IMG/VR virus record: IMGVR_UViG_3300020448_000009
Coordinates: 1 to 61,128 of that record
Strand: one strand, 5' to 3'
DNA length: 61,128 nt
DNA from: a virus
Below the pieces are notes generated by a model that had not been told where the DNA came from, did not search any database, and saw only the letters and a list, made by a program, of their open reading frames with translations. This document shows positions 5,178 to 48,000 of the stretch, in pieces. The position numbers were made by a program, and so were the translations under genes. The stretch's first letter is position 1, and each line of letters starts with the position of its first letter.

Positions 5178-8100
5178 TTATAGAGCAGCGATTCTAGTCT
5201 GGAAGTCAGCAAAGTCAGCGGACGCAGCGACTGTAGACTTGAGTGTAGCTAATGTAATTGTTTCTGCCTGTAATGCAGATGCAGCAAGAGCACCTTGTGC
5301 AGCAGTAGCATAATCAGTTGATGCAGTTGCAGCAGCAGTGCCTAATGTAGGTTTGCCACTTAAGTCATTATATGCACCAGAGAATAATGTAGGTTTACCA
5401 GTTAGGTCATTATATGCACCAGAGAATAATGAAGGTTTGTTGCTTAGGTCATCATAATCATTAGATGTGGCAACAGCACCCAAGTCGCCTGGTTGTGTAG
5501 CAGAGGCAGCAAGTGTACCTTGTGCAGCAGTTGCATATGCAGATGCAGCAGTGGTAGCAGCACTACCTAATCCTAATGTGGATCTGGCAGCAGAAGCATC
5601 TGCGTCATCAACTAGTGTTAGACCAAATGTGCTAATTGCAGAAGCATCAAGTTTTCCAGTAATACCTGCAACTACACGAGCATCTGCTCTAGCATTAGTG
5701 AAGAATACATTAGTCGATCCTTCAGTAATATTATCAGTATTAATGTCTGACTGAGTAACACTAAGAGTACCACTACTATGTGTGATTCCTGTGCCGTATG
5801 TAAAGTGAGTCCTTGTCCTAGCAGCAGTAGTGAATAGATTTGTTGATCCTTCAGTTACTGTGTCAGTGTTAACATCTGCCTGTGTAACAGATAATGTGTA
5901 TGTGTTAGCACCATCGTCATAGACTTTAGTAACACCAGTACCAGCAATGATAAGAGCATCGATTCTGTCATCAACTCTCTCATCTGTATAATATTTGTTA
6001 GTTGCTCCCTCTGCTACATCATCTGTATCATGGTTAGATAGAGATGCGATAGTTGTTGGGATTGTGTATGAGATAACACCTGTAGAAGCATTATATCCTA
6101 GGTCTCCGCTAACAGAGATATGTCCTCTAGTGCGAGCAGCAGTTGTAAATAGATTTGTGGATCCTTCTGTGACATTATCGGTGTCGATATCAGCCTGAGT
6201 AACAGAAAGTGTGCCACTGTTATGTGTAATACCTGTGCCATATGTGAAATGACTCCTAGTGCGAGCAGCAGTGGTAAAGAGATTTGTAGATCCCTCTGTT
6301 ATATTGTCGGTATTTATATCTGCCTGTGTTGCACTTAAGGTCAACATGTTACCTGCGTCATCATAAGTCGCAGTAATACCAGTGCCACCTACGATTAGAG
6401 AATTAACTCTATCGTCAACTCTTTCGTCAGTAAAGTATAGATTTGTAGATCCCTCAGCAAGAGCATCAGTATCATGGTTTGCGATACTACCAACTTGTGC
6501 CTGACCGTAAGTAATGTTACCTGTAATATTCAAGTTACCTTGGACTTCAAAGTCAGTTGTTGATCTGAAGTTTGTAACAGTTAATCTGTTTGTGCCAGGA
6601 TTATATGTTAGGTTTGTAGAGTCTGTGCGGATCTCAGTGAAACCATTGTTTGTAGAAACAAATGTTGGGAAGTATGTAAGGTTAGATGTTGTAGTATCTG
6701 TGATATCAGAGAGTAGAGTCTTGTCAGAAGTACCTGTTAGATCACCTGTTATGTTACCAGTGATCTGCCCTGTTACACCAAGTGTGCCTCCGATAGTGGT
6801 GTTAGTTGTAACGTCAAGAGAGTTAGTAGTTGTAAGACCACCCGCTATGATGTTACCAGAGGTTGATTGCAACTCAATCTTAGTTGTGCTGCTACCATTC
6901 TGTAATTTAAGAGTCTTAGTAGATCCCTTTAATACAATACTATCTTTGAATAATGATGTGCTATCTAAAGTAAATGTGCCATCAAGTTGTAAATTACCAT
7001 CTACATTGAGGTCAGCATCAAAGTCAACATTCTGTGTGACATTCAATGTATCGTCAATGACAGTTGCACCTTGGACATCTAATGTGCCTGCAATATCAGT
7101 GTTACCACTTGCAGATGCAACACTAAATTTGTTTGTGTTAACAATCAAACTACCGCCGATGTTAGCAGCACCACTAGATGTGAGACTTCCTAAGTTTAGG
7201 GTGGTTAGTGTTGTAATACCTGTAACACCAAGTGTGCCCCCAATAGTTGCATTACCAGTTGTGCCTGCTAATGTAATTGTCTCTGCAGCGTTAGGTCCTA
7301 ATTTTAGAGTCTGTCCGATAAAGACATCCTCACCAATGGTTGCACCACCATTAGGAATCATTAATGGAGCGTTAGCAGTTAGAGATGTAGGATTCTCATT
7401 CTTAGTAAGATCAACTCTTGCCTGTGCAGTTACATTATCAACTAAAGTTGTTGTGCTTGTAACTTCTAATGTGCCTTGAGTTACTACGTTTCCGTTATCT
7501 GTATCTACTGTAAACTTATCGACACCAGAGTTATTCTGGATCTTAAATGTTTTATTATCAGCGTTTATTGTGACGTCATCTTGGAATGTCGCTGCACCAT
7601 CTACGTTTAGAGTGCTATCAAGATCAGTTGCTTGAGTGACATTGAAAGTATCGTCAATGGTTGTAGCACCCTCGACATTAAGTGTGCCTTGAATATCTGT
7701 ATTACCATTGTCAGTATCAATAGTAAATTTGTCTAGTCCTGCAGCAGTTTGAATCTGGACTTGCTTATTGTCTGCCTTAACTACTAGACCATCTGTAATT
7801 GTAGTCAACAGATTGATATCTGCTGTGCCATTTACAGTTAAGTTATCATCTACAATAGTTTCACCTGTTGCAGAGTCAATAGTTAAGTTACCTAGAGATG
7901 TATCAATCTCAGAAGATCCACTAACACCAATCTGAATGTTATCAGCAGTGATGTCTGTAGATGTAATTGCAGCGTTAAATGTTGAAGTTGCATTAACAGT
8001 TAATGTGTCACTGCTGCCATCACCTAATGTTGAGTTACCATCAACTTGTAGATTACCATCTACCTCAGCATTATCTGTGATGTGTACCTTTCCTGCCTGA

Positions 8101-11100
8101 GAGTCGAGGATAAGGTCACCAGCTGTGGTACTAATTTCATTGTTAGCATCGACCCCGATCTTGATGGCGTCTGCTGTGATGTCTGTGGAGGTGATTGCTT
8201 GGTTAAATGTAACCGTGCCAGTGAATTCGTGAGCATCTCCTGATGCGTTACCGATAGTAGTATTACCATCGACAGTAAGAGTGCCATCAACCTTAGTATT
8301 ACCGTCAACATTTAAGTCTCCGTCTACGTCAGCATCATCTGTGATATTAACGGTGCCACCTGCTGAATCTAATATTAGATTTCCAGAGGTTGTTGAAATT
8401 TCGCTCGATCCATCAACACCGATCTTAATGTTATCGGCAGTAATATCTGTTGATATAATCGCTTGGTTAAATGTAACTCCACCTGTAACTACATGTGAGT
8501 CCCCAGAAGCATTACCGATAGTAGCATTACCATCAACTTGTAATGTCCCTTGGACAATGGTGTTACCTGTGCCTGCATCTACAGTAAACTTAGTAGAGTT
8601 AATTGCAAAGTCATTGGTTACATCGAGCGTGCCAGTGATACTGACATCTCCACCAAATGATCCATCGTCTGTGACGACGAGATCGTCTCCAACGTAGAGA
8701 TCCAATCCAATACCAACACCGCCCCCAACGATGAGAGTCCCAGTAGCAGAGTTTGTCGCATTTGTTGTGTCAAATAATTTAATTGATCCTGCATCTAGAC
8801 CAGATCTTGTGCCTGTGAATGCCTCTGATGAATTAGTAGCAGCATGGTAAAGTGCATATCTTTCTGCAGAGTTATCCCAACCAAAAAATCCTAGTCTTGC
8901 TTGAGTATCGTAATACCTAAACTCAACACCACGATCCTTAGCATCATCAGATGAAGGAGCAGTGTCACCACCTAAAGTAATAATAGGATCGTCTAACGTA
9001 ACAACAGTAGAATTAACTGTGCTTGTTGTGCCGTTAACAGTTAGGTTACCTTCTATTATAGCATTTGTGTCAACAGTTAGTGACCCATTGATTCTAACAT
9101 TGTCAGTTAGAGTTGTGTCGCTGTTAACTGTAAGAGTGTCGGTGTTTGCATTACCGATAGTTACGTTGTCAGTAAACTGTGTATTGTCATTAAAGGTTGC
9201 GTCACCGTGGACTGTTAAAGTACCTGTGCCTTGTCCAACACGACCAATTATTGTATTACCATTATCACTATCAACTGCAAACTGTATCTGACCAGAAGCA
9301 TTGTTGATATTAAAGACTTCGTTATCAGACTGTAAGATTATAGAATCGTAGATTGTGGTTGTGCCATCTACAGTTAAAGTAGAATTAAAATCTACTGCCT
9401 GATCCACATTAAGAGTTGAATCAAAATCTACCGCTTGATTAACTGTAAGGTTATCTGTAAGGGTAGTGTCTGAGTTAACTGTTAATGTATCGCTAGATTG
9501 ATTACCAATAGTAGCGTTGCCATCTACTTGGAAATTATTTTCTAATACTACTGCAGATCCTACAGTAAGTGTACCTCTGATATCTGTATTACCATTTGTA
9601 GAAAGGACGGTAAATTTATCATCAGTGCCGTTTGTAATCTTGAAATTCTTACCAGTGGTATCAAGTGTAATATCATCATGGAATACTGAATCATTATCAA
9701 CATCCAATGTTGAATTAAACGTAACAGCAGAATCTACATCAAGAGTGCTATTAAATGTTACTCCACTATCTACATCTAATGTGCCATCTGTATGTGTATT
9801 ACCATTATCTGTATCAATATCAAATACACTAGTGCCACCTGCAGTTTTAATCTCGAATTTTTTATTATCTGCTTGTAAAAGAAGACCATCAGTTATAGTT
9901 GTTTGTAACTGAATGTCAACTGTACCTTCAATAACTGTGTTACCTGTAGCACTTTCGATAGTAACCTTATCAGTAGTGCCATTTCTAACAGCGAAGTTTG
10001 CATCTATGTCAACAGTGCCATCAATCTCAACGTTACCATTCAAGTGGGTTGTGCCACCGACGTTAAGATTTTCAGAAATACCTGCACCACCAGTTACAAC
10101 TAGTGTACCTGTTGTAGGTGTCTTCCAAGTAGAAGAAGTGTTAGTTGTTAATCTGAGGTTACCACCAATGATAGGAGCGTCAGTCCCAGTAAATGTCTCA
10201 GAAGAGTTGGTCGCATTGTAGAGGAAGCGATACCCGCCAGTGCCAGACCATATGTTAGAGTCTGCATAATCTTCGTCCCACCCGAAGAATCCGAATCTTT
10301 CTTGTGTATCATAGTACCTAAATTCTACACCACGGTCTAAGTTATCATCTGATACAAGAGTATCTTCACCACCTAAAGTAATGATAGGATCTTGGACTGT
10401 TAATGTAGTTGAGTTTACAGTTGTAGTTGTGCCATCTACTTGAAGATCACCACGGACTCTAACAAGACCAGTAGCACCATCATCGTCATTAGGATCAATT
10501 ATCAACGTAGAGTTGGTAGTTGAAATAACGTTGTCTTGGAAATGGAAGTCCTCTACGTTGACTCTATTAGCAACGTTTGTGGCATTGATAGTAATATCAT
10601 TTTCAGAAGTGATATTGATAAGAGCATTACCACTACCTGCATTTGTCGCATTAATTAATAGAGTGCGATTTTCTGTTGTATTTTGTGTGTGTTGGAAAGT
10701 AAGATTACCATCACCAGTCTTGTCTAGAGCCTGATCGATTGCACCATCTAAAGTAATATCTGCATCAGAGAAGTAAGTCCTTACATTAATATCAACCTCT
10801 CCTGCACCACCATCAGTGATAGTTAAACTATTACCTTGTCCTGTATGGTGATGACACCAATAATATAGACTTGCAGGTGCATCAGTCTGCACTAAAATTT
10901 CTGCAACACGAGTTGTAGCAGCATCAAAACCACTTACATACCCTGCCATGTTAACGACAGCACCATCTAACTTATAGGTGACACCATCCATATAATGACC
11001 ATTACCATTATGGTCACCATCAGATCCTGTGCTAAACATCAATGGGTGATTCATCCCATTGTATACTTCATTGCTATTATCTGACTGGTCAAAGATGTAT

Positions 11101-12548
11101 GTTACTCCTCTCTTAAGACCAATGCTAGGTTTCTCTACAGCATCAAGATAAAATACACCTGTTGCTTGACCACCGACATTATCTACACCTACTGTGACTG
11201 CTATCGTAGTAACTAACTGTTGAGTCCCACCACTACCATCACCAGTATTATTAACACCAAAGAGTAAGTTACCAGTTGTATCGTTTACCTTCGTATAGTT
11301 AAGGTAATTAAATCCTCTATAACCAGTAGTTGATGTTAACTCCTGATCTAATTCAAAATCCTCTTTTGTATTACCATCAGCAAAAGAGATTCTATTATTT
11401 TGTAGTTGTAGATTATCTACTCCATTTTCAGCGATGGTTACAAAACCACCTTCATATCCACTTGCAGGATTCCATGCTGTTACATCGAAGTCCTCTTGAT
11501 TGAAAGATGCTAAACCCTTTTGTGGGGTTACAGCAGTTCCCAAATAACGCCAAGACCCTGTGTCGGAGGTGTCCGTGTGTGTAGGCTCACCGCCTCCAGA
11601 ACTGATAGCAGCGATAGCCTCATACAAGCGATTACTTGCATTTTTGACTTTTGCATAGCGAGCGTAAGTTGTTGAGTTGTCGAATGCACTTACCTCACTA
11701 CCTTGTGTAGCGGTAGCGATTGGAATGGTTTGTGCTTGTGTTAATCGACCATATCTGTCTACTGTAAATTCTGTTGTGTTTACAGTATCGTCGTCGGGTA
11801 AATTTACCGATACTAGTGGAGTGTCTAAGTTACCTGTAGGGTTGTAGTAACCAACTATAACTGTAGTATCAGCAAGGTCAATGAATGGATTACTGCTTTG
11901 ACCGTTACCATTATTAATTACTAAACGACCAGATCCACCTGTTAGTGTCCTAGTTGTAATTGTACCTTCCGCTTGACGTGACATCAAACCAAAGGATGTC
12001 ATGTCTGCTATAGATTGTAAATCTGTGTCTGCTGCCTGAGCGTCAGCAATACCATATTCTGATAAAGTTGTTGGGTTAGTAGCAGAAGTAACACGACCAC
12101 GAGAGTCTAGTGTTATCTGTGTATATGTCCCTGTAGCATCTAAATCATTGGCATCATAATGAGGTAAGCCTGGCTGATAATTCAACTCGGCAGTAATGGT
12201 TAAGTTTGCAGATCCATCAAAAGTACCACTACCAGACATGTCACCACCAAGAGTGATTTGTCTTGCGTTTGCTAATCTAGTTGCTGTTGCTGAGTTACCT
12301 ACCAGAGATCCAGTGATTGCACCTGCCTCAAAGTTACCGTCAGCATCCCTTTTAACAAGAGTGTTCGCAGTATTAGATTCCGTTTCTAGTGGACGCTCAT
12401 AGCGTAAACTATTCCACGGAGTAACACCGTCACCAATTTTTATTCTAGACGTGTCAATCTCAATACCTAACTCACCCTGAGCAAGTATCGGGTTAATGTT
12501 TGCCCACTGCTGAGCACCATCACGTCTTAGTTGTAGTCTATTTGCCAT
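5178..12548 (-). CDS. Very long repetitive tail fibre with cupredoxin-like segment
   Basis: The product is 2,456 aa. Residues 1-55 (LQLRRDGAQQWANINPILAQ, then IKIGDGVTPWNSL) are the fibre N-terminal domain common in marine phage tail fibres. Residues ~456-583 resemble a cupredoxin: NHPLMF with His501, then YYWCHHHTGQG with Cys565 and His566-568. Two copies of GVEFRYYDTQ.R.GFFGWD lie near residues 700-760 and 1180-1240. Between and after them are many LTVDG/TIGNASGD/TDNAEVDG repeats suggestive of a beta-solenoid shaft, then TEGSTNLF.T.ARTR repeats, and a C-terminus with tandem FSGAYNDL.GKPTL units. No chaperone or enzymatic domain is evident. A late-promoter motif lies ~44 nt upstream. It most likely binds the host surface; the receptor is unknown. 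Confidence 0.85.
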   Translation of the reverse strand: MANRLQLRRDGAQQWANINPILAQGELGIEIDTSRIKIGDGVTPWNSLRYERPLETESNTANTLVKRDADGNFEAGAITGSLVGNSATATRLANARQITLGGDMSGSGTFDGSANLTITAELNYQPGLPHYDANDLDATGTYTQITLDSRGRVTSATNPTTLSEYGIADAQAADTDLQSIADMTSFGLMSRQAEGTITTRTLTGGSGRLVINNGNGQSSNPFIDLADTTVIVGYYNPTGNLDTPLVSVNLPDDDTVNTTEFTVDRYGRLTQAQTIPIATATQGSEVSAFDNSTTYARYAKVKNASNRLYEAIAAISSGGGEPTHTDTSDTGSWRYLGTAVTPQKGLASFNQEDFDVTAWNPASGYEGGFVTIAENGVDNLQLQNNRISFADGNTKEDFELDQELTSTTGYRGFNYLNYTKVNDTTGNLLFGVNNTGDGSGGTQQLVTTIAVTVGVDNVGGQATGVFYLDAVEKPSIGLKRGVTYIFDQSDNSNEVYNGMNHPLMFSTGSDGDHNGNGHYMDGVTYKLDGAVVNMAGYVSGFDAATTRVAEILVQTDAPASLYYWCHHHTGQGNSLTITDGGAGEVDINVRTYFSDADITLDGAIDQALDKTGDGNLTFQHTQNTTENRTLLINATNAGSGNALINITSENDITINATNVANRVNVEDFHFQDNVISTTNSTLIIDPNDDDGATGLVRVRGDLQVDGTTTTVNSTTLTVQDPIITLGGEDTLVSDDNLDRGVEFRYYDTQERFGFFGWDEDYADSNIWSGTGGYRFLYNATNSSETFTGTDAPIIGGNLRLTTNTSSTWKTPTTGTLVVTGGAGISENLNVGGTTHLNGNVEIDGTVDIDANFAVRNGTTDKVTIESATGNTVIEGTVDIQLQTTITDGLLLQADNKKFEIKTAGGTSVFDIDTDNGNTHTDGTLDVDSGVTFNSTLDVDSAVTFNSTLDVDNDSVFHDDITLDTTGKNFKITNGTDDKFTVLSTNGNTDIRGTLTVGSAVVLENNFQVDGNATIGNQSSDTLTVNSDTTLTDNLTVNQAVDFDSTLNVDQAVDFNSTLTVDGTTTIYDSIILQSDNEVFNINNASGQIQFAVDSDNGNTIIGRVGQGTGTLTVHGDATFNDNTQFTDNVTIGNANTDTLTVNSDTTLTDNVRINGSLTVDTNAIIEGNLTVNGTTSTVNSTVVTLDDPIITLGGDTAPSSDDAKDRGVEFRYYDTQARLGFFGWDNSAERYALYHAATNSSEAFTGTRSGLDAGSIKLFDTTNATNSATGTLIVGGGVGIGLDLYVGDDLVVTDDGSFGGDVSITGTLDVTNDFAINSTKFTVDAGTGNTIVQGTLQVDGNATIGNASGDSHVVTGGVTFNQAIISTDITADNIKIGVDGSSEISTTSGNLILDSAGGTVNITDDADVDGDLNVDGNTKVDGTLTVDGNTTIGNASGDAHEFTGTVTFNQAITSTDITADAIKIGVDANNEISTTAGDLILDSQAGKVHITDNAEVDGNLQVDGNSTLGDGSSDTLTVNATSTFNAAITSTDITADNIQIGVSGSSEIDTSLGNLTIDSATGETIVDDNLTVNGTADINLLTTITDGLVVKADNKQVQIQTAAGLDKFTIDTDNGNTDIQGTLNVEGATTIDDTFNVTQATDLDSTLNVDGAATFQDDVTINADNKTFKIQNNSGVDKFTVDTDNGNVVTQGTLEVTSTTTLVDNVTAQARVDLTKNENPTSLTANAPLMIPNGGATIGEDVFIGQTLKLGPNAAETITLAGTTGNATIGGTLGVTGITTLTTLNLGSLTSSGAANIGGSLIVNTNKFSVASASGNTDIAGTLDVQGATVIDDTLNVTQNVDFDADLNVDGNLQLDGTFTLDSTSLFKDSIVLKGSTKTLKLQNGSSTTKIELQSTSGNIIAGGLTTTNSLDVTTNTTIGGTLGVTGQITGNITGDLTGTSDKTLLSDITDTTTSNLTYFPTFVSTNNGFTEIRTDSTNLTYNPGTNRLTVTNFRSTTDFEVQGNLNITGNITYGQAQVGSIANHDTDALAEGSTNLYFTDERVDDRVNSLIVGGTGITATYDDAGNMLTLSATQADINTDNITEGSTNLFTTAARTRSHFTYGTGITHNSGTLSVTQADIDTDNVTEGSTNLFTTAARTRGHISVSGDLGYNASTGVISYTIPTTIASLSNHDTDDVAEGATNKYYTDERVDDRIDALIIAGTGVTKVYDDGANTYTLSVTQADVNTDTVTEGSTNLFTTAARTRTHFTYGTGITHSSGTLSVTQSDINTDNITEGSTNVFFTNARADARVVAGITGKLDASAISTFGLTLVDDADASAARSTLGLGSAATTAASAYATAAQGTLAASATQPGDLGAVATSNDYDDLSNKPSLFSGAYNDLTGKPTLFSGAYNDLSGKPTLGTAAATASTDYATAAQGALAASALQAETITLATLKSTVAASADFADFQTRIAAL
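5345..5455. repeat. 42-nt tandem repeats in fibre gene
   Basis: The phrase TTAGGTCATTATATGCACCA with flanks recurs at a 42-nt period, coding for FSGAYNDL.GKPTL. Near-identical DNA at adjacent copies suggests recent duplication or slippage. Confidence 0.75.
5690..6335. repeat. Repeats coding TEGSTNLF.T.ARTR in fibre
   Basis: Four copies at about 5690, 5815, 6125 and 6250 of an ~80-nt phrase that codes for QAD.NTD.VTEGSTNLFTTAA plus RTR. Spacing varies, so these are dispersed domain-level repeats. Confidence 0.75.
7850..8550. repeat. Three ~75-90-aa shaft repeats in fibre
   Basis: Units with STDITAD.IKIGV, EI.TT.G.LILDS and a VDGNLQVDG-like end recur with ~226 and ~267-nt spacing (marks near 7937, 8163, 8430). 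They fit a fibre shaft. Confidence 0.7.
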
Positions 12549-20550: not shown

Positions 20551-22086
20551 TTAGAATTCGATTACGACTTTGATATCCTCAATTTGGTCGCCCGCACGAG
20601 TGATTGGTCCTCTATTATCTATGTAAATAATCCGACCGCTATTTGGTTGGATCTCTGGATCTGCATAACCGTTAGTAAATGCCATACCCAAATCATATTC
20701 AGTGTTGTTAATCACTCTGGTAGAGGATCCAGAGACGATAGGGAAGTTGATGTCTGGGTCACCTGATGTACCTGAGATAGATCCCACAACTGGGTTACCT
20801 CCATCAAACTCAGTCAAACTACCAGTAATCTCAGGGAAAATACCGTCGATTCTATTCTGGTAATACTTCAATACTTTTGTTGTGCTATTCCATGAAACAA
20901 CACGACCTCTAGCAGTTACCTGCTGCCCACCAACTGTCCTAGATTGTGTTACGATCTCGTCAGTTGTGTAGTTACCTGTAAATGTAGGAGAGAATATAAC
21001 TGCCTTTGTACCTGACAAAGTTAATTCTGCAGTCAATTCATTTGTGCCATATCTAAATGGATTAAGTAACAAACCAATACGACGATAGTCGTTATCAGTT
21101 GGGAAGTCACCTGATCCCTCAGCGTATGTAAACTTGGTGTTGATCATTGTCCTATATCCACCTAACTCTGTGTCAGGTGCTGCACCATGACCTACAGATG
21201 GAGGAATGATAACTTCAACAGATGCACCAGATCCTGCTCCTGCTCCAATACCGTTGATCTCATCAATGATAACTGTCCCGAATGTATATCCTGATCCACC
21301 AGATGTAACAGTAGCAGTAACAAGTTTACCACCGTCAACCACTAGTGATACACGTCCACCAATACCGTCTCCTTTAATAGGGACGTTTTCATAGGTGCCG
21401 TTGTTGTAACCAGTACCTGAAGATCCGATAATAACCGTATCAATCTCTCCACCAACAGCATCAGAGATAACAGCAGTATCTTCCAACACTGGCATATATT
21501 CATTAGAGAAGAATTTTAAAACTTGTCCAACAGGAATAGTATAGAGATATTTCCAACGATAACCATCAGCAGTTGTGATGATAGATGTTGAAGTACCTGT
21601 AGGCTCAACAGTGGAAGGTTTTCCGTTAGGATCACCAGGAGACGTGCCGTTGAATATACACTTGTATACCTGATAAGATGAGTTAACAACATAGAAGTCT
21701 GCATCATAAAGTTTAGTAGCACCAGATGCAGCAGTCTTGGTAGCAGAATAGTCATGTCTATACATGTCATAGACGTATCCTAATCCACCAGTTGTTTGCT
21801 CGGGAGGAATCCAGTTTATTCGTCTTACAACTTGAATTGTGTCATTTGCTAAAACTCTCTTTAGGGAGATCATGTCAGAAAAGTTGTCAGCAAATTCCTG
21901 CAGCGAATCCGTTGGATCGGGCGGGTCATTCTCATTATCCCAACTTTGAGGTCTGCCAATGAATACATACAGTCTGTCTCTGGATGATCCTGCTGCTAGA
22001 TCGGATTGTGCCGAGTCAGGACCTTCCAGAGATTTAATGAATCTCTTGGCAGTAAAAATTCTAAACTGGTCGGTTAGTAGTGCCAT
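20551..22086 (-). CDS. gp8: Baseplate wedge protein gp8-like with C-terminal extension
   Basis: Residues 1-~210 resemble T4 gp8: an N-terminal DQFRIFTAKRFIKSLEG, RLYVFIGRPQSWDNENDPPD, then PTDSLQEF, MISLKRVL, and later DGYRWKYLYTIPVGQVLKFF plus NEYMPV. In T4, gp8 dimers bridge gp7 and gp10/gp6 in each baseplate wedge. The protein is 511 aa against 334 in T4; the extra part includes glycine-rich SSGTGYNNGTYENVP and GGSGYTFGTVIID modules of a kind repeated in neighbouring genes and a segment NYTTDEIVTQSRTVGG. A late-promoter motif CCATAAATA lies 24 nt upstream of the start in the short gap after the 614-aa gene. Confidence 0.83.
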   Translation of the reverse strand: MALLTDQFRIFTAKRFIKSLEGPDSAQSDLAAGSSRDRLYVFIGRPQSWDNENDPPDPTDSLQEFADNFSDMISLKRVLANDTIQVVRRINWIPPEQTTGGLGYVYDMYRHDYSATKTAASGATKLYDADFYVVNSSYQVYKCIFNGTSPGDPNGKPSTVEPTGTSTSIITTADGYRWKYLYTIPVGQVLKFFSNEYMPVLEDTAVISDAVGGEIDTVIIGSSGTGYNNGTYENVPIKGDGIGGRVSLVVDGGKLVTATVTSGGSGYTFGTVIIDEINGIGAGAGSGASVEVIIPPSVGHGAAPDTELGGYRTMINTKFTYAEGSGDFPTDNDYRRIGLLLNPFRYGTNELTAELTLSGTKAVIFSPTFTGNYTTDEIVTQSRTVGGQQVTARGRVVSWNSTTKVLKYYQNRIDGIFPEITGSLTEFDGGNPVVGSISGTSGDPDINFPIVSGSSTRVINNTEYDLGMAFTNGYADPEIQPNSGRIIYIDNRGPITRAGDQIEDIKVVIEF

Positions 22087-22123: not shown

Positions 22124-23968
22124 TTAATCGTCTTCATTTCGGACTCTAGTTGTATACTCAGTAAAGATGTGCACACCTGTTGCACCTGACCCTTGACCTT
22201 GTATAGTTTCACCTGCAGCAAACTTACTTGCTGTGTTAGATGCAGTAATATTCTTTACGTTTAAGATAAATTCTCCTGTCCTTTCCCCTGCAGTAATACT
22301 TACAAAGGTTGCAGTAACACCGCTAGATTGACCTGTTATGATCTCATCAACAGCATATGCAGAAGCGTTTCTATCTCTAACAGAGATTGCACCAAGAGAT
22401 ATATGAGTGTCTCCATCACCCAAAACTCCCGCTGTAACTACTGTTGCAAGTTGCGGTGGGTTTGCTCCGTCGTATAGTTTATCCGCTGCTTGGAATAAGG
22501 TGATATTTTGTCCACCTAATTCTTCCTCAATACCATATTTAGATGATGCTATACCACCATCTAGGTTTGTATCATTTTCAAATTCTGTGCCAGTATTTAC
22601 TAGATCAATAATACCGTCACCCGCTCCGTCTAATTCATCATCATCTTCAAACGCTTTGTTTAAGATTGCTGATAACGGATCAGTAAAAGTAACAATATCG
22701 TTACCTGCACTGTCTATAATAACGTGTGGTGATACACCTGTGCCACTAGATTGTGCACTACCACCAACAAACTGTATAGATGCAGTCTTATCAGCAGAGT
22801 TACCACCATCAATAAATGCTAATTCGTCAACCTCAAATGTTAGATATAACTCATGAGCAATAGGATCCCAATCATATACGATAGCAACCCTACTTGTCGC
22901 ACTAGCAACAAAACGTTTTACTTGGTCGGTAACCGCAAACGAATATTGAGAAACCCCTTGAGCATCGTCTTGCAAGTTGTCCAGAGTAACTTTTTGGTCA
23001 AATCTAAAGTTGACACCCCTGTCGAGTCCAGTAAAGGAGGTTGCAGTTTTACCTGTATATCTAACGATTTCCTTCCCGACCAAGAATTTACCTGAGCCTG
23101 GATACGCTGCAGTAGTTTCGACATTAATGGTGCTATCACTTGGTGCCACATTTGAAATGAGACCAGTAAGATTATAAACGACACTATTAAGAGATTGTCT
23201 ATTCCTTTGCCTACGAATGAGATTGGTATCTCTAGCAAATATAACTTTAGGACTATTAGTATACCCATTACCTTGGTTAGATAGATCTATACTAGTAATG
23301 GCACCCAAGTCAATATCAGCACTTGCTGCTGCTCCTCTACCACCTCCACCAATAATCTGCACAATAGGTGCAGTCTCAAAAAATTCACCTTGGTTAGTTA
23401 GGGTAATTGATGTAACCTTACCAAACTGGTTGGGTGTAACTGTACCTGTAGCACCATCTCCACCGCCACCACCAGATATAACAACGTTAGCATCATTGAG
23501 GTCATAGTTTCTACCTTCTCGGGTAATAACCAGACCTGTCACACCACCAGTAACAGGGACTAATTCTGATCCAGAGCCACCGCCACCTTCAATAACAGCA
23601 CTAGTGCCGTCAAAATAATTATCACCCAGAGTTGTCATCTGGATATAGTCTATTCCACCAGTTGCATTCAAAAAAACTTTGCCTCGTGCACCAAGACTAC
23701 CTACATCTGTTGATTCGATCTTTAAACGTAGAGGGTCATATCCTTCGCCAGGATCTAAGATCTCAACAGCAAGTATTCTATTGTCTTGGATTATAGGTCT
23801 TAAAACTGCCTCTCTTAGAGGTGTCCCTGCATTCTGTATAGTCAGTTTTGGAGGGTCATTAGCATCATATCCGTCCCCACCACTTTCGACAAAAATCGCC
23901 CTGACTCCAAACACACTGTTGAATTCGGGTCTAATAATTGCACCAGAGCCAGGAACTGTACGTGTCAT
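22124..23968 (-). CDS. Glycine-rich beta-module virion protein
   Basis: The product is 614 aa. The first ~270 residues are a string of modules ending in GY followed by a VxI strand and GGGGSG/GGGGDG loops (for example GEGYDPLRLKIE, EGRNYDLNDANVVISGGGGG, NQGNGYTNSPKVIF). Residues ~280-350 carry a PSDSTINVETTAAYPGSG...VGKEIVRYTG module also found in the DUF4815 and giant proteins. The C-terminal part has two GE/DE.I.G..SG.TA modules. I cannot name a T4 counterpart. The start overlaps the stop of the 491-aa gene by 4 nt (ATGA), and gp8 follows. A structural role at the baseplate periphery is inferred from place and composition. Confidence 0.75.
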   Translation of the reverse strand: MTRTVPGSGAIIRPEFNSVFGVRAIFVESGGDGYDANDPPKLTIQNAGTPLREAVLRPIIQDNRILAVEILDPGEGYDPLRLKIESTDVGSLGARGKVFLNATGGIDYIQMTTLGDNYFDGTSAVIEGGGGSGSELVPVTGGVTGLVITREGRNYDLNDANVVISGGGGGDGATGTVTPNQFGKVTSITLTNQGEFFETAPIVQIIGGGGRGAAASADIDLGAITSIDLSNQGNGYTNSPKVIFARDTNLIRRQRNRQSLNSVVYNLTGLISNVAPSDSTINVETTAAYPGSGKFLVGKEIVRYTGKTATSFTGLDRGVNFRFDQKVTLDNLQDDAQGVSQYSFAVTDQVKRFVASATSRVAIVYDWDPIAHELYLTFEVDELAFIDGGNSADKTASIQFVGGSAQSSGTGVSPHVIIDSAGNDIVTFTDPLSAILNKAFEDDDELDGAGDGIIDLVNTGTEFENDTNLDGGIASSKYGIEEELGGQNITLFQAADKLYDGANPPQLATVVTAGVLGDGDTHISLGAISVRDRNASAYAVDEIITGQSSGVTATFVSITAGERTGEFILNVKNITASNTASKFAAGETIQGQGSGATGVHIFTEYTTRVRNEDD

Positions 23969-25440
23969 ACTACTACTATGTCACCTATCATGTTGACGTG
24001 TGATGGAATACCACACTGATACTTGTAAGTTGTGCCTGCACTTAATGTTTGTGGCACTGTCCAGAATTGGACTCCTGATTGAGATCCACTAACACCACTG
24101 ACTGCAGATCCATTTTGAGATACATTAATTTCAAATGGATGTGATCCTCCTGTTGTGTTATTAAATCTATAAGTAAATCCTCTATAGACATATATTGTAG
24201 GATTGTCAGATCCAGTTGGTAAACCACCACCATCAAATCTATAACCAGCTGTTGCATTACTAGTGATTATGAAACTAATAGTTGGAGATTCGGTAGCAAT
24301 CCATTGTGTACCATCATAGACTAAGTTGTCATTCTCACTTGCTGAAGGGAATGATGCAGTGTTTGTAATTGTAAGAGTGTTACTTGAAACAGCAGTTGTG
24401 ATACCTGTGCCACCTGCAATAGTAATTCCAGAGTTACTTGCAACAGCAGTATAACTTCCACTGTCACCTGATACAGATTGCAATACATTCTGCACAATGT
24501 TAGGTGAATCGTTTGTTATAGTAATAGCACCTGCGTTGAGGTTAGTGCTAATACCAGTGCCACCTAAGAAGTTAAGGGTGTCTGTAGTTACTGTAGCAGT
24601 TGTAGTGCCATTATCAGCACCAAATGTTTCAAACAAATTCTGGTCAGGATCACCAAGTGCACCTGTCATAGTAACTGTAAGTGTATCTCCTACCAATGCA
24701 GTGGAGATGTTTGTGCCACCTACAATATTAAATGTGTCATTTGCAGCAGACGCTGTTGTTGTGCCAGTATCACCTGTAAATGTTTCAAATAGGTTTTGTG
24801 TTGTGCCACCGCCACCTGTTGCTGTTTCATCATTAGCAGGCTCCCATTTTGAAGATGTGCCATTCCATTTCAATACTTGACCGTCAGAAGGTCCTCCATT
24901 TACTGTAGTATCTACGTCAGTTAGTATAGAAATACCATCAGTGGCATCGAGAAGTTGTGTCCAACTGCTGTGTGCAACATATGCTTTTCCTGTGCCATTT
25001 ACATATCCAAGCATACCTTGATGTGCAGTAACATCAGGAAGATCGCTCAATAATGCATAAGGAGCAGTCCATTTAAAATATCCATCTGCACCATCTACAT
25101 ATGCCTTTCTACTACCTTGACTACCTGCCTTAAATTCAATATCTCCTGTTGTATCTGGCTCAATAACAATATTACCTGCACTCTCAGAAATAATTTTAAA
25201 TGCTTTAACATTGAGGTCAGCACTTAATGAATCTAGGTGTGATTCAGTAAAAGCTGTGCCAGTCCATCGCAACACTTGATCATTAACAGGTGCTCCGATA
25301 TTAACTTGTAAGTTGGTATCATTTCCTAGGTTAGTATATAACTCATCAATGACGCTATTTAATTTTATAGCACCATCTCTCAGGGTATCACCTGTGCCGT
25401 CATTTGCAGCTGATCCAACTGATAAATTTTGCTTAGCCAT
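23965..25440 (-). CDS. Tail protein with C-terminal cupredoxin-like domain
   Basis: The product is 491 aa. The N-terminus (MAKQNLSVGSAANDGTGDTL, then RDGAIKLNSVIDELYTNLG) is a recurring anchor of cyanophage tail proteins. Residues ~215-350 are three degenerate repeats with NLFETFTGDTGTTTA and GGTNISTA. Residues ~390-491 resemble a blue-copper fold: VYRGFTYRF, GGSHPFEI with His434, then YKYQCGIPSHVNMIGDIVVV giving Cys476, His481, Met484. The four residues are in the order and approximate spacing (H...C-x4-H-x2-M) of type-1 copper sites such as azurin (C-x4-H-x3-M). Whether copper is bound is not known. A CTAAATA motif overlaps the stop of the gene upstream, 23 nt before the start. Confidence 0.8.
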   Translation of the reverse strand: MAKQNLSVGSAANDGTGDTLRDGAIKLNSVIDELYTNLGNDTNLQVNIGAPVNDQVLRWTGTAFTESHLDSLSADLNVKAFKIISESAGNIVIEPDTTGDIEFKAGSQGSRKAYVDGADGYFKWTAPYALLSDLPDVTAHQGMLGYVNGTGKAYVAHSSWTQLLDATDGISILTDVDTTVNGGPSDGQVLKWNGTSSKWEPANDETATGGGGTTQNLFETFTGDTGTTTASAANDTFNIVGGTNISTALVGDTLTVTMTGALGDPDQNLFETFGADNGTTTATVTTDTLNFLGGTGISTNLNAGAITITNDSPNIVQNVLQSVSGDSGSYTAVASNSGITIAGGTGITTAVSSNTLTITNTASFPSASENDNLVYDGTQWIATESPTISFIITSNATAGYRFDGGGLPTGSDNPTIYVYRGFTYRFNNTTGGSHPFEINVSQNGSAVSGVSGSQSGVQFWTVPQTLSAGTTYKYQCGIPSHVNMIGDIVVV

Positions 25441-25462: not shown

Positions 25463-25469
25463 TATTTAG
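25463..25469 (-). promoter_or_regulatory. Late promoter-like CTAAATA
   Basis: Overlaps the TAA stop of the YHYH/Ig gene and lies 23 nt before the ATG of the cupredoxin-like tail gene. Confidence 0.55.
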
Positions 25470-27046
25470 GTCGCATCGTATGTAACTGACGTGGTGTCAT
25501 ACTTCACTGCGGTAGATGAGAAGTCAGTATCACCTTGTCCACCACCTAGTCCTGATACAGATAACGTTGCAACAGAAGACATTAGGGGTGAGTTACTTGC
25601 ATTATTAGCGGGTGCAGGTCCTCGTAATTCAACTTTATACTTGTAGTTGGACATGTATCCCAACGCAGTAAATGATAGTGAGTTGCTTGTTGCACCAGTA
25701 ACTTGTGCGTATGCAAATCCATCATCAGTTGATCTATACCATTGATATGTAATAGGTCCTGGTATAGGAGAGACATTTGCTTGGACTGTAAAGGTAACAG
25801 TTGTATTGACAGATGCCGTAGCACTTTGAGGTTGTGCAGTAATTTGCAGCGTAGGTGTAACAGGAGGTGCTCCACCGTCTCCACCTTCTTGTGCAGGAGG
25901 TGCTGCTGCTCCATTGTTTGCAGGTTGATTTATAGTCTCTCTAGTCATATTCCCAACCATATATGGGAATGCTGCTTCTCCTACAGAGTCAATAGATATG
26001 AAATATGCATAAGTCCCATTTGGAAATTCTGGGGTTACACAGTATCTACCATTGTGAAAATCTAAATCACCTAGACCATCAATATATTCCCAGTCCTGCA
26101 CTAAAGATCCTGCAGGAGGGTTTTGTGCAGAAGTCCCATAATCGGGTCTTCCTGCTATTTCAATATTTCTTGTCCTATAACTCGAGGACATAAAACGAGT
26201 TGTTTGTGATGCAGTAAACGCTACGTCATATCCAAAAGGTCCGTATACTGGGAATCCATCAAAGCAATATCCTAAGATTTTACTATGACCATCAGGGTGA
26301 CGCATATTGTCACCATTAAACTGACTACTACCATAGTAGTCATTATAGTTTGCCATAGCAGAATTCTGCTTCCAACAATCTATAAAATGAGTATCATGAT
26401 AATGATACTGTCCTGTTGATTCTGGGTGTCCACCACAAGAATCTTCACCAAAATCTACAGGTGAATTAGGATAATGTGCATTCCACTGAAATCCTACAGG
26501 AGGGTTACCACCTGCACCTGCACTAGGATTATAAAATACAACTCCATTTGCAGCAATACCTATAGCACCAAGAGGAGTTTCTATACGTCCATTTCTTTGA
26601 TCATAATATGTGTATGTGCCTGTTGGTATTGTTTGTGAATCTGCAACAATAAGATCTAATCTTTGGTCTGTGGCGAGCCAGCATTCTCCTGCAATGGACG
26701 TAAATGTTGTCCCTCTAAATACAAATCGTTGTTTCCTACCGTCAGAAAAGATAAAGAAAAGATGATCGCCAGGAGCAATAGTTTGGGCAGCAAATAAAGC
26801 ATTGTCATTAACTGATATATTTACAGAGATAACAAATCCACTTTGGAAGTATGTGTTATCATCAAATGTCCTCTCAACACCAAACTCACCACCACGATAT
26901 GTAAACGTATGAGCAAATGCCTGCTCTGTAACCGCATTAGGATTATTCAGATTAGGAAACGTGCCATAACTTACTGGATCAGGTAGACCATCACCAGTTA
27001 CGGCAAGTTGTTTAGTTGCTGACGTGTATGTTGCTGTAGCGGTCAT
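25466..27046 (-). CDS. YHYH-domain plus Ig-like virion protein
   Basis: The product is 526 aa. Around residues 200-370 it carries a YHYH domain: TGQYHYHDTHFIDCW, then GHSKILGYCFDGFPVYGPFG, and FPNGTYAYFISID before AFPYMVGNM. Residues ~395-505 read as one Ig-like fold (TPTLQITAQPQSATASVNTT, with ITYQWYRSTD and YKYKVEL). Function of YHYH domains is unknown; Ig-like domains on phage tails are thought to give weak surface binding. The gene overlaps the end of the 7,343-codon gene by 4 nt (ATGA), so the two are likely translated in series, and the giant has its own YHYH and Ig-like regions. Confidence 0.78.
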   Translation of the reverse strand: MTATATYTSATKQLAVTGDGLPDPVSYGTFPNLNNPNAVTEQAFAHTFTYRGGEFGVERTFDDNTYFQSGFVISVNISVNDNALFAAQTIAPGDHLFFIFSDGRKQRFVFRGTTFTSIAGECWLATDQRLDLIVADSQTIPTGTYTYYDQRNGRIETPLGAIGIAANGVVFYNPSAGAGGNPPVGFQWNAHYPNSPVDFGEDSCGGHPESTGQYHYHDTHFIDCWKQNSAMANYNDYYGSSQFNGDNMRHPDGHSKILGYCFDGFPVYGPFGYDVAFTASQTTRFMSSSYRTRNIEIAGRPDYGTSAQNPPAGSLVQDWEYIDGLGDLDFHNGRYCVTPEFPNGTYAYFISIDSVGEAAFPYMVGNMTRETINQPANNGAAAPPAQEGGDGGAPPVTPTLQITAQPQSATASVNTTVTFTVQANVSPIPGPITYQWYRSTDDGFAYAQVTGATSNSLSFTALGYMSNYKYKVELRGPAPANNASNSPLMSSVATLSVSGLGGGQGDTDFSSTAVKYDTTSVTYDAT

Positions 27047-42000: not shown

Positions 42001-45000
42001 TGTAGAGGAAGCAACTACACTACCATTTACTTCAAGAATAATTTTACCGAAGTTAGGATCAGATGCGATACCCATAAGGTATGCAGAAACACCAGAGGTG
42101 CCATTTACTTCAATAGTATCAAAGAAGTGTGGAGTGTTACCTGCTGCATATGCAGTGGTATTCATACTAAACCATGCTGCAGTAGTCCAGTTTTGACCTT
42201 CCCATGCTAAACCTGAGGCAGTAGCACGGTTTGCTGCTTGGAATTTAAGTGATCCACTGCCATACTTATAATAACCAGTATCTACTTCAGCATCAGCAGG
42301 TGTTTGAATTGTAAGAGTAGATATAGTCTGTTTAGTTGTATCATAGTCTAAATCAGCACTATCATCAAATCTATAGACTGCAAGTTGATTAGGAATTAAT
42401 CTTTCAGCAACAGTGATAATATCACCAGAATTATCAACTGTAGAGGTTTTACCAACTTGTCCAACAGAATCAGTTGTTTCTATTAATGATTCTGCTTTTA
42501 CTGTGCCATCATACTTAAGTGAAGATACAATATTAGTTTTTCTGTCTTCGTCATAATCTATAGCAGCAGTTATGACAACATCTCCAAATACATCGATATG
42601 TAGACCAGTATTCTTAATAGAGACGTAATTTCCTTGAGGAGTTAATGATTTACGGAATAACCAAGGTTTTACTACTGTAGCACCTTGAGCATTGGTCATA
42701 GTTGCATTTGTATCTGCAAGAGGAATTTTACCAAGTTGGATTCTTTCAAATTTACCATTTGCATTATTATAGACATCATATAAGAAAAATACGTCATTAT
42801 ACTCGTCAATAGTAAATCTTGGGTTTCTTGCATAACCACCAAGAGCAGGGACTTGTTTTACGAAGTCAACATTGATATTTGACCCATCATATGAGAATGT
42901 GCCGTATATCATGTTATCAGTTGTCTGGTTGACACCTACAAACATAAATGTGCTGTTTGAAACCCATTTAATCTGTGTGAGATCTTCATCACCATTTGGA
43001 GAAGATATTTTACGTTTCTCTTTTAGATCTCCATCATTATTAGATTGAATGATCCAAATATCATTTGCATCGATTGCTTGAGTATCTGTGTAACCAACAA
43101 TGTAAATATTGTTATTTTCATCAAGGGCAATGTCAGTAATGTAATCTCTACGTTGTCCACCAGATATACCCGCAATAGACTTCTGCCACTTTAAAGTACC
43201 TGTAGGATTGTTTTGTGCATCCCTTTCTGACTCATATTTACCAAACCAGACATCTGGATTATAATTGGCGTTATCGGGGTCATATGTTTGGCCACCAACA
43301 TATACGAGGTCGTTTTCTTGGGAGTCATCAACATATAGGCAAGTAAATTCAAGTTTCTTAGTGCCTGCGTTATTTGGAAGTAATGTCCTAACCCACTGCA
43401 CCTCACCAAGGTCATCAAACTTGGCAAGGAAACCAACTTGATCATTATCGATATCTTCTACTAAAGATCCACAAATATAGTAGTCTCTATTAACTGTTGA
43501 GTAACTATCGAATATGGTAACATTACCACTGTCATTCAAATACTCTGATAACCAATAACGTGTTTTGGTGTTTGACTGTGGATGTGATACTCTGATTTGT
43601 GGGACATTAGTTGTGCTATAACCATTACCAGAGTTTACAATATTAAATGAATTTGCAACACCTGCAGCGTCTAAGTTGATAGTAAATTCAGCGTCAACAC
43701 CACCTGAGTCATCAACCAACTCATATGTTGGAGGTATTAACTCACTATATCCAACACCTGCTATATCTACTGTAACACTCTCAATACCATCTACAACTTT
43801 TACAGTAAACTCTTTATTTGTATTTGACGTAATAGGAGTGCTATCTACAATAACTTCATCACCTTGAGAAAGATCATGGTTTTGAGAAGTTGTAATAACA
43901 CCATATGGTCTATCACCAATTATTTCCTTGACATATGCACTTATAGGGACACCTTTAATACTATCAATGATTGCAGAAGCACCAAATCCACCAGTGCTTT
44001 CATTATCGAAGAATACGGTATCATTTACCTGATAAGATCTACCAGGATTCTCAATAACAAAACCATCAATTTGTGCAGTCTCAAACTGAGTAACAGTCTC
44101 TACATCTATGTCAACTTTAGACTCAAGTGAGACTTGTGGGAAGTAATCATATATCTGAAGTGTAGGCTCTTCTTGTAACTGTAATATCTCTTGTTGCTCA
44201 TTAGCATCAATAATACCATCTTGGTTGGTATCTTGAATCTCAAAGATTATAGGATAACCTTCTATTTCAGTTGTTAATACATCTGCCTCTTGGTTTGGTA
44301 AACGCTCAACATCTATGTCCACATTCTCATATGGGACTCTATATCTTACAACATCGGCAGGAATATTTTCTTGGACTGCACCTTGACTTAAATTCCACTC
44401 ATCTGGAAGTGAGTTAAATGCAGGACCCATAATATATGGGAATAGTGGTAAACCATCTGAAGATGCATCAATAGTAACGAAGTATGCATATGTGCCATCA
44501 GGATACTCAGGTGTTTTACAGAAACGACCGTTATATTGATCTAGGTCACCTTGTTGGAAAACATATTCATAGTCAGGTACAAATGACCCTGCAGGGTAAG
44601 TTGATAGTAGAGGACCGTCAACTCTAGCAGGATTTGGATTTGCATCTGTTAATACTATCTCAGGTTTAAGTTGATATGATGTGCGAAGTCTTCTTACACC
44701 ACTGTTTTGATCAGTTGGGTTTGCATATCCATAAGGACCGTAGATTGGGTTACCATCATATGCCCATCCTAAGATTGGAGAGTGTTGGAAGTTAGTTTCA
44801 ATTTCTTGGAATTTACCTGTTTCTTGATCTAAGAATACGTTGTCTCCAACAACATAACGTAATTCTTTTGGATCTGAAAGGTGAGCATATTCACCACCAT
44901 ACTGGTTGTTAAGACCAGTAAATACATATCCTCTTGCTATATCATACTTGTTGGAAAGATTATATTCAAAGTTTTTATTCCACTCAAAAACTTGTGCAGT

Positions 45001-48000
45001 GAATGTTGCCATTTCACCAACAGCGTCTAGTCTTACAGTAGTTGTACCTTGGATATAGTTAATACCTCTGTTGGATATAGAGATACCAATTACTTTACCC
45101 TTGTCTTCCCCAGTTGTTGCAATGCTTGCTTTTGCAACAGCACCAAATCCATCACCATTGATTACAACTCTTGGTGCTGTTGTATAACGACGACCAGAGT
45201 TAATAATAGCGATAGATACGATTCTACCATTCAATACGATTGGTTGTGCTAATGCACCTTCACCAGATGTAACAGATACAGTGGGGAGAGATGTGTATCC
45301 TGATCCACCACCTGTTAATGTGACAGCAGAGATAGGACCTCTGATATTAGCAGTGGCTGCAGCACCACTACCGCCACCCCCAGTAATAGTAATAGATGGT
45401 TGTGATGTAAAGCCACTGCCAGGATTGCTTACTAATATTCTTGTTATGACACCATTAGTAACAACTGCAGTTGCAGATGCACCTGATCCACCACCACCAA
45501 CGATAGAGATCAATGGAGAAGATGTATAATCCTGTCCTCCTGCAGTTACCTCAAATGAGTCAACACTACCATTAACTGTAACAGTAGCAGATGCACCACT
45601 ACCTCCACCACCTTCAATAAGGACTTCTGGGGGAGATCCTGCATCATAGTTGAGACCTGAGTTAGAAACAACAACACCAGTCAAAGGACCGAAAAGTATT
45701 GACTCTTGTGACTTATAGCACCATATACTTACACCATTAACCCAAGCACCTATTGCACTGTTAGCAGCAATCTGTTGTCTCTCAGAAACGGTATTTACAG
45801 TCCTAGGGACTCTAATAAGTTTTCTTTGGTTGCCAGGTATTAATGCAGACCCAATAAAAGGTCCTATCTTGTAGTTTGGAAGACCAGACGCTGCAACGTA
45901 AACATAATCGGCATTAAAGAAGGAATTCTGAATATTAGTCGTAAATTCAGTAACAACGTTGTTAATTGGAGTTTCAGTAGACTTACCTCTGTTAAGATCG
46001 ACTGAAAGTAAGATATTACCAACAGGGACGATATCAGTTGCTGTTGCAACTCTATATGAAAAATTAAAGTCGTCAATACGAGAAGAAACTTGGAATGTGC
46101 CATTAAAGACAACTGGGTTAGCACCATACACTGTAACGGTGTCTTCTACCAATAATCCATGAGGTTCTTCGGTTGTTACGGTTGCAACTTGTGATGCACC
46201 GCCAGGATCGATTGTAGAGACTCTAACAAGTTTTTTAACGTTGTAAAACCAAGATTCTAGTCTTTCTTCACCAACAGAGTCTGATCCTAGTGATGCAACC
46301 TTTAATTTATCGCCAGGTAAGTAATATGACCCTGTATCGTCTAATACTGTGCTTCCTGCTTCAGCAATACCCAAAACACGCATTTTAACTTCAGTAGAAG
46401 TGCCTCTATTAGCGTAAATGAAAATATTGGAAGTAATGGTCGTGCCAGGATCCCAATCTTCAACAATACCGTTATTTGATCGAGTACATTCGATAAATTG
46501 GTTAAGTGACTTCTCTTTATACAAGACTTCTTCATTATCACCAATAAAGAAGGTGCCGTTTCTCTCTGGCCATCCAATAGTCGAGTCAACGGTTACAATT
46601 TGCCCTGTAGTGGTTAATGGCTCAACCAGATTAGTAATATAAGGTATTTTAAATGTGCCAGTAAGTGTTTCTTCAGATATTACCAATTCATAAATTGTAT
46701 CTTCACCTTTGATGATAGAAATTGCATTTTCAACTAATGCTGATGCATTTTTGACATTTTGGTCAACATCATCTGCATATTGGATAACTTCTGAGTCAAT
46801 TAGGTTAGCAGCGTCACCAGATACAATCTGAGTCCTTAAAATAGTGTCTACAGTCCATGTAGCAGCAGATGGAGAGATAATCTGCTCTTTAGGATATGAA
46901 ACCTCAATCTCTTCACCAAAAAGAATCTTGAAAAGATATTTTGCACCTAATGCAGTACCTTTAGCAAGATAGAAGTCCCTGATATTCTTAATTACGTTAA
47001 CAGGGTTAACTTTACTTGGATCTAGATTTATAGTCGGTAAATATTGCTTTCTAAACTTCTCAAATAACTGATAGATGAAAATGGAGTCAAGGTTGTGGAC
47101 TATTGACCCTATAGGGTGTGTGCTAGTAGCAATCTGACTTTCTTTTGCAAAAATTTGATTTCCAAACTCGTCAAAGTCAACAACGTTAGAAACACCACGG
47201 ACAATACCGTTAAATGCACTAGGCACATAGTTTCTACCACGCTCTTCAATTACAAATCCAGTAACTTCGTCATATCCAACATTTACAGATGCTTTTGCTG
47301 CTTGAGGCTCAGCAATGTAAATTGTAGGAGGATTTGCTTCACTATATCCAGTACCAAAGTTGGTAATGTTGATATCTGTTAACTCACCGTTGAATATAGT
47401 CGCTGCAGCAGTTGCACCTGTGCCTCCAATAGGATCACCGTATGCATCTTTACGATCGTCAACAATATAGACAGATGGAGCGTCAGTATAACCTCTACCA
47501 CCAGTCAATAACTCGATATCTGTAACAGCACCACTAGATACAGTCACATCTAAGACTTGAGCACCTACAGGATCGATTACACGGCATCTAGGAGGAGTTG
47601 TATACCCTCTTCCTCTATTAATGATAGTAACTAAACTTAAACCACCTTCTGCAGTTAGAGAGCACTCTGCAATAGCGTTGATACCACCATCAGGAGCAGG
47701 ATCGATGTATATTGTAGGAGGGTTAGCATAATTAAGACCTGGTGAAGTAACTGTAATGCTTTCTACGTTAAGTCTACCTTCAGAATCAATAGTTGCATCG
47801 CTAATAGTTGCACCGCCAGGATTATTGAAGGTAATGACAGGCACAAAGTCATATCCTGACCCAGAGTCAGTAATAGTGACAGTATCAACCATTCCAGTAG
47901 TATCATTAACTGTTAAAGATACTTTTGCAAGTCTACCATTGGGATTACTAGGTGCAGTAACTAAAGGAATAGGAGGATTGTAAGATGTATAACCTTGACC

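Follow-up and report, generated by a model that had tools for sequence, protein, structure and literature searches.

What is a complete set of blue-copper ligands doing at the end of a phage tail protein? The question arises from a stretch of viral DNA of 61,128 nucleotides (IMG/VR record IMGVR_UViG_3300020448_000009), referred to here as the window, in which a 491-aa open reading frame on the minus strand (23965..25440) ends in a domain that had been read, from the letters alone, as a cupredoxin harboring the type-1 ligands His434, Cys476, His481, and Met484. The cupredoxins are an old and well-known family, and a blue-copper domain would be an unexpected component of a virion.

The protein and its setting

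The tail region of the window and Cyanophage P-TIM40 are collinear and share 86% nucleotide identity over 6.5 kb, and the 491-aa protein is the homologue of PTIM40_101. Its N-terminal 99 residues match the Pfam family T4_gp9_10_N (5.8e-10), and the ORF is assigned to phrog_677, 'baseplate wedge tail fiber protein connector' (4.3e-136). The gene lies between that of a YHYH protein, a 526-aa neighbor (25466..27046, minus strand) with a YHYH domain (PF14240, 3.9e-35) and a weak Ig match, and that of a 614-aa protein, after which comes a gp8-like baseplate wedge protein (20551..22086, minus strand; PF09215 and phrog_438). The family matches, the baseplate gene context, and the collinearity with P-TIM40 bear out the earlier description of a tail protein, and the predicted product is a T4 gp9/gp10-like baseplate wedge or tail-fiber connector, a tail baseplate protein of a P-TIM40-like cyanomyovirus.

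Fold and family of the C-terminal domain

The sequence-only reading had proposed structure prediction and a Foldseek search as its check, and both favor a cupredoxin. The AlphaFold2 model of the C-terminal domain is a confident Greek-key, cupredoxin-type beta-sandwich with a pLDDT of 93.5. Its PDB matches at E<=0.001 are rusticyanins, copper nitrite reductases, plastocyanins, amicyanins, laccases, and SufI, of the multicopper-oxidase fold, so that the best are either type-1 copper proteins or multicopper-oxidase-fold relatives; their Foldseek probability is about 1.00, with moderate TM-scores of 0.5-0.6 to solved cupredoxins. The domain had been placed at 23965-24300, a location that holds although its limits are slightly narrower, as the fold begins near residue 385 and covers residues 385-491 (23968..24288, minus strand).

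Profile comparisons point the same way. A narrow family profile (A1) searched against the PDB finds amicyanins first, at an E of 0.03, with all four ligands aligned with those of amicyanin. A more diverse profile (A5), built from 21 divergent viral copies, reaches amicyanin (PDB 1aac, 1sf3) as its best match at 9e-8, plastocyanin at 1.3e-7, and nitrite reductase at 3e-7, from sequence alone. Aligned by hhalign against five PetE proteins, the narrow A1 family gives a weak match (26%), but the broad family resolves the relation: 327 viral copies align with phage plastocyanin at 94.4%, with an E of 8.9e-8. The Pfam Copper-bind (PF00127) cut-off is attained by three of the seven divergent copies tested, the top score being 31.4 bits. 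The window domain by itself scores 15.1 bits, under the 21.2-bit cut-off, and its membership therefore rests on the fold and on intermediate sequences; its NCBIfam matches, to halocyanin, rusticyanin, and azurin, are weak. This sub-threshold score is what could be said for a motif that arose by chance in a domain unrelated to cupredoxins. That explanation is contradicted by the invariance of the ligands, the fold, the Foldseek matches, the Copper-bind intermediates, the hhalign alignment, and the A5 matches, and is hardly credible. Because four independent lines, namely fold, profiles, Copper-bind intermediates, and ligand conservation with joint loss, agree, the last ~107 residues very probably form a cupredoxin domain of the plastocyanin kind with a full ligand set. 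A CuA domain was also considered and rejected, as it needs two Cys ligands and the 491-aa protein has a single Cys.

The ligand set and its conservation

The four proposed ligands stand in the translated ORF exactly where they had been reported, and are the sole His, Cys, or Met residues beyond position 258. Their spacing in the window copy is H-x41-C-x4-H-x2-M. The loose motif H-x30-75-C-x2-4-H-x2-4-M arises in 11 of 100,000 shuffles of the protein. Conservation is a stronger test of the motif than shuffling, and across 55 distinct relatives, gathered mostly by peptides free of ligand residues, all four ligands are invariant. A chance motif was rejected on conservation and fold together.

The set is also kept in much more distant viral copies. 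Among 340 distinct copies, the two His and the Cys make up the three strongest columns (98%) and the Met follows at 95%, in a collection that was partly chosen by a pattern containing Cys, His, and Met. Position by position, the predicted copper ligands are retained as follows: His434 (24139..24141, in an HPF context) in 326/334 copies, Cys476 (24013..24015) in 326/332, and His481 (23998..24000) in 324/329, while the predicted axial ligand, Met484 (23989..23991), is Met in 313/328 and Gln in 9, all four codons being on the minus strand. As the 340 include loci picked by pattern, the fair test is the subset selected by non-ligand peptides, and there H, C, H, and M are found in 138 of the 138 copies with letters at all four positions; two further copies of that subset have no letters at one or two of them. 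The full set is kept in the isolates P-TIM40, P-SSM4, S-SSM4, ACG-2014d, P-SSM2, P-GSP1, MA01, and S-SCSM1.

The C-x4-H-x2-M order described for the window copy is correct for that copy but is not the usual form, as it occurs in 19/304 copies and C-x2-H-x2-M in 283/304. At the axial position the chief substitution is Met to Gln; in one set Met accounts for 210 of 272 copies and Gln for 49, with no other residue common. Met and Gln are the two residues that serve as axial ligands in natural type-1 sites. The second His is absent from 4/4 copies that lack the Cys and from 1/325 that have it, with a Fisher p of 1e-8 that overstates independence, since the joint-loss copies are few and partly related; three of these four also lack a Met or Gln. 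Conservation, the Met/Gln exchange, and joint loss all uphold the claim of a full type-1 ligand set.

These patterns bear on two further explanations. The first is that the domain is an apo or purely structural adhesive beta-sandwich, in which the ligands persist through ancestry or packing. Other virion beta-sandwiches, such as Ig and lectin-like domains, do act in adhesion, and a few copies persist without ligands, but the ligand columns are the best conserved while the remainder diverges to about 26-40% identity, Met is exchanged mainly for Gln, and ligands are lost jointly, all of which makes a metal-free role improbable. The second is that the virion site holds zinc or another metal in place of copper. 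Type-1 sites are able to take zinc, and the cytoplasm in which the protein is synthesized contains little free copper. However, the combination of Cys, two His, and a weak axial Met or Gln is the usual mark of a copper site, Met is seldom found in zinc sites, and we regard this substitution as a shade more improbable still.

Two other features surround the site. A Tyr two residues ahead of the Cys is 97% conserved among viral copies, and the first ligand His precedes a Pro (HPF or HPL), where plastocyanin usually has Asn. The HPF context presumably resembles that of the first His in the HPxHLH motif of multicopper oxidases.

Distribution among viruses

A search of 50,697 phage records matched the gp9 cupredoxin in 252 (E<=1e-3), or 319 at E<=1, all of them cyanophage or marine, and no cupredoxin match was found in these records beyond cyanophages and marine viruses. 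The gp9 N-terminus was matched in 310 of the same records. It is over these N-terminal 99 residues that the viral protein resembles T4 gp9/gp10, whereas in the enterobacterial T4-like phages among the matches listed the likeness is limited to the first ~40 residues. Across cyanophages the cupredoxin is fused to the gp9 N-terminus, and on gp9 of T4-like cyanophages it is near-universal.

The fold extends well beyond gp9. A scan with the ligand pattern gave at least 120 matches in many different proteins, and the BFVD structures place the same fold in tail fibers and in S8-peptidase, lectin-like, Ig, and YHYH proteins. The expectation that a redox metal center on a phage tail would be unusual is not sustained for the module itself, which is carried by nearly every cyanomyovirus gp9 and often by other tail proteins of marine viruses. 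Some viral proteins carry three to five cupredoxin copies. In tandem arrays from three loci, L178 (ORF + 1570), L343 (ORF + 2365), and L198 (ORF + 6937), one copy has H, C, H, and M and the next lack several ligands jointly (YYYQSS...), a pattern that would fit the retention of a single metal site in each array. Metagenomic Pithovirus and Marseillevirus entries in BFVD named 'Beta-sandwich protein', A0A481Z6J5 and A0A481YWX9 among others, also match the cupredoxin fold.

Bacterial relatives were sought in genome contigs, and the search returned only cyanophage-like contigs inside the assemblies of other organisms. One of these, NZ_RMVE01000006.1 (L081; 188,235 bases), deposited as Nonlabens xiamenensis, is 99.1% identical to P-TIM40 over 8.3 kb and, given this identity and a size about that of the P-TIM40 genome, is probably phage contamination of a bacterial assembly. 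Four MAG contigs labeled Flavobacteriales or Euryarchaeota (L082-L085) are probably mis-binned phage, because they bear cyanophage-type gp9 genes.

Comparison with known copper and tail proteins

Amicyanin is the closest of the known copper proteins in sequence. Most viral copies share its C-x2-H-x2-M loop, and in the window copy the stretch from Cys to His is longer by two residues. The first His of amicyanin lies in an HN context, in contrast to the viral HPF or HPL, and amicyanin is a free periplasmic electron carrier, whereas the viral domain forms the terminus of a virion protein. Rusticyanin and AcoP are the top Foldseek matches of the viral domains, but they are stand-alone exported proteins, as are the stellacyanin-type cupredoxins.

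Plastocyanin, including the PetE of cyanophages, is alike in fold and ligand order, and PetE occurs in the same kind of phages. However, PetE has a gene of its own, and its sequence opens with what resembles a signal peptide and contains a C-x2-H-x4-M loop, whereas the C-terminal gp9 domain, with its C-x4-H-x2-M, shows neither that loop nor a signal-like start. The gp9 domain as a captured PetE gene was rejected on the differing loop and on PetE being a separate gene. The plastocyanin of S-SCSM1 (NC_070962.1, 127746-128003; H162) is called 'tail tip protein Tal' in RefSeq and plastocyanin in GenBank MK867354.2.

Possible function

Copper binding by the gp9 cupredoxin is, in our judgment, likely. 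The best explanation of the domain as a whole, to which we give nearly the same credence, is that it binds one copper, is probably exposed at the rim of the tail, and serves most likely in contact with the host. One copper ion would be held by His434, Cys476, and His481, with Met484 as the axial ligand, in a predicted type-1 geometry. Exposure at the rim is probable since the domain forms the end of the protein opposite to its N-terminal baseplate anchor. Virion proteins lack a signal peptide and are synthesized in the cytoplasm, so the site would probably be loaded with copper of the host or, once lysis has occurred, with Cu(II) from seawater. The most likely role is that of a beta-sandwich host-contact module, in which the bound copper may either stabilize the module or join in the contact with the cyanobacterial surface.

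A true redox center would go further, with the virion copper cycling between Cu(I) and Cu(II) and passing or sensing electrons, for instance when the tail adsorbs to the host surface or is triggered there. The retention of a weak axial Met or Gln, a ligand that in known cupredoxins has a small effect on binding and tunes the potential, is consistent with this, as is the conserved Tyr ahead of the Cys. Set against them, no redox partner or surface patch has been identified, and it is hard to see what repeated electron transfer would serve on a tail that acts a single time; a redox role is possible though unlikely. Another alternative is a metal lure or carriage function: copper on the tail would engage a host metal uptake site, much as the Trojan-horse idea proposes for iron on phage tails, or virions would serve as ligands for copper in seawater. 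The copper of known cupredoxins is buried and tightly held, no copper receptor is known here, and this function appears quite improbable, notwithstanding the abundance of the module on marine tail proteins and a proposed precedent in the iron-binding HxH motifs of phage tail fibers such as T4 gp37 (PMC11705849). Those motifs also put metal on a phage tail, but with another metal, fold, and ligand set.

To return to the favored host-contact module, its distribution and the retention of all four ligands in hundreds of relatives suggest that an old copper fold has been recruited as a common virion component, and that many marine viruses carry an unrecognized copper site on their tails. In the databases searched the cupredoxin is not named as a widespread tail module, and the proteins that bear it in hundreds of genomes are labeled 'baseplate wedge tail fiber connector' or 'hypothetical protein'. 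A literature search for cupredoxins or copper on phage tails, with subscription papers mostly outside its scope, returned nothing relevant. If cyanophage tails do bear copper, virions would make up a marine reservoir of tightly bound copper, and the infection of Prochlorococcus and Synechococcus could respond to the supply or chelation of the metal. The strongest version, that type-1 copper sites are standard in the tails of abundant marine viruses, that the presence or redox state of the copper controls attachment or triggering, and that infection thereby depends on the chemistry of copper in the ocean, is a speculation that we hold to be doubtful. The gp9 domain now has a concrete structural and functional hypothesis that is easily testable on one small recombinant domain.

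A probable second cupredoxin and other predicted metal domains in the window

The window encodes a second cupredoxin within a 2456-aa structural protein (5178..12548, minus strand; phrog_697, with Mtd_N at its start). This domain (10809..11195, minus strand; profile match 2.6e-9) carries His501, Cys565, His568, and Gln571, and an axial Gln is the stellacyanin arrangement. Its AlphaFold2 model has a pLDDT of 93.4, its best Foldseek matches are AcoP and rusticyanin, including the rusticyanin Met148Gln mutant, and hhalign relates it to the first domain at 94.8%; from sequence alone, no match to solved copper proteins was reached. Relatives of the second domain occur in 309 phage records.

A YHYH domain is found not only in the 526-aa neighbor of the gp9-like gene but also within a 7343-aa structural protein (44335..45144, minus strand; PF14240, 110.5 bits). 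For the YHYH domain, Zn binding and a role as a tail-associated hydrolase have been predicted (PMC7824862). With two YHYH domains on neighboring structural proteins and two cupredoxins, one tail would carry four predicted metal domains.
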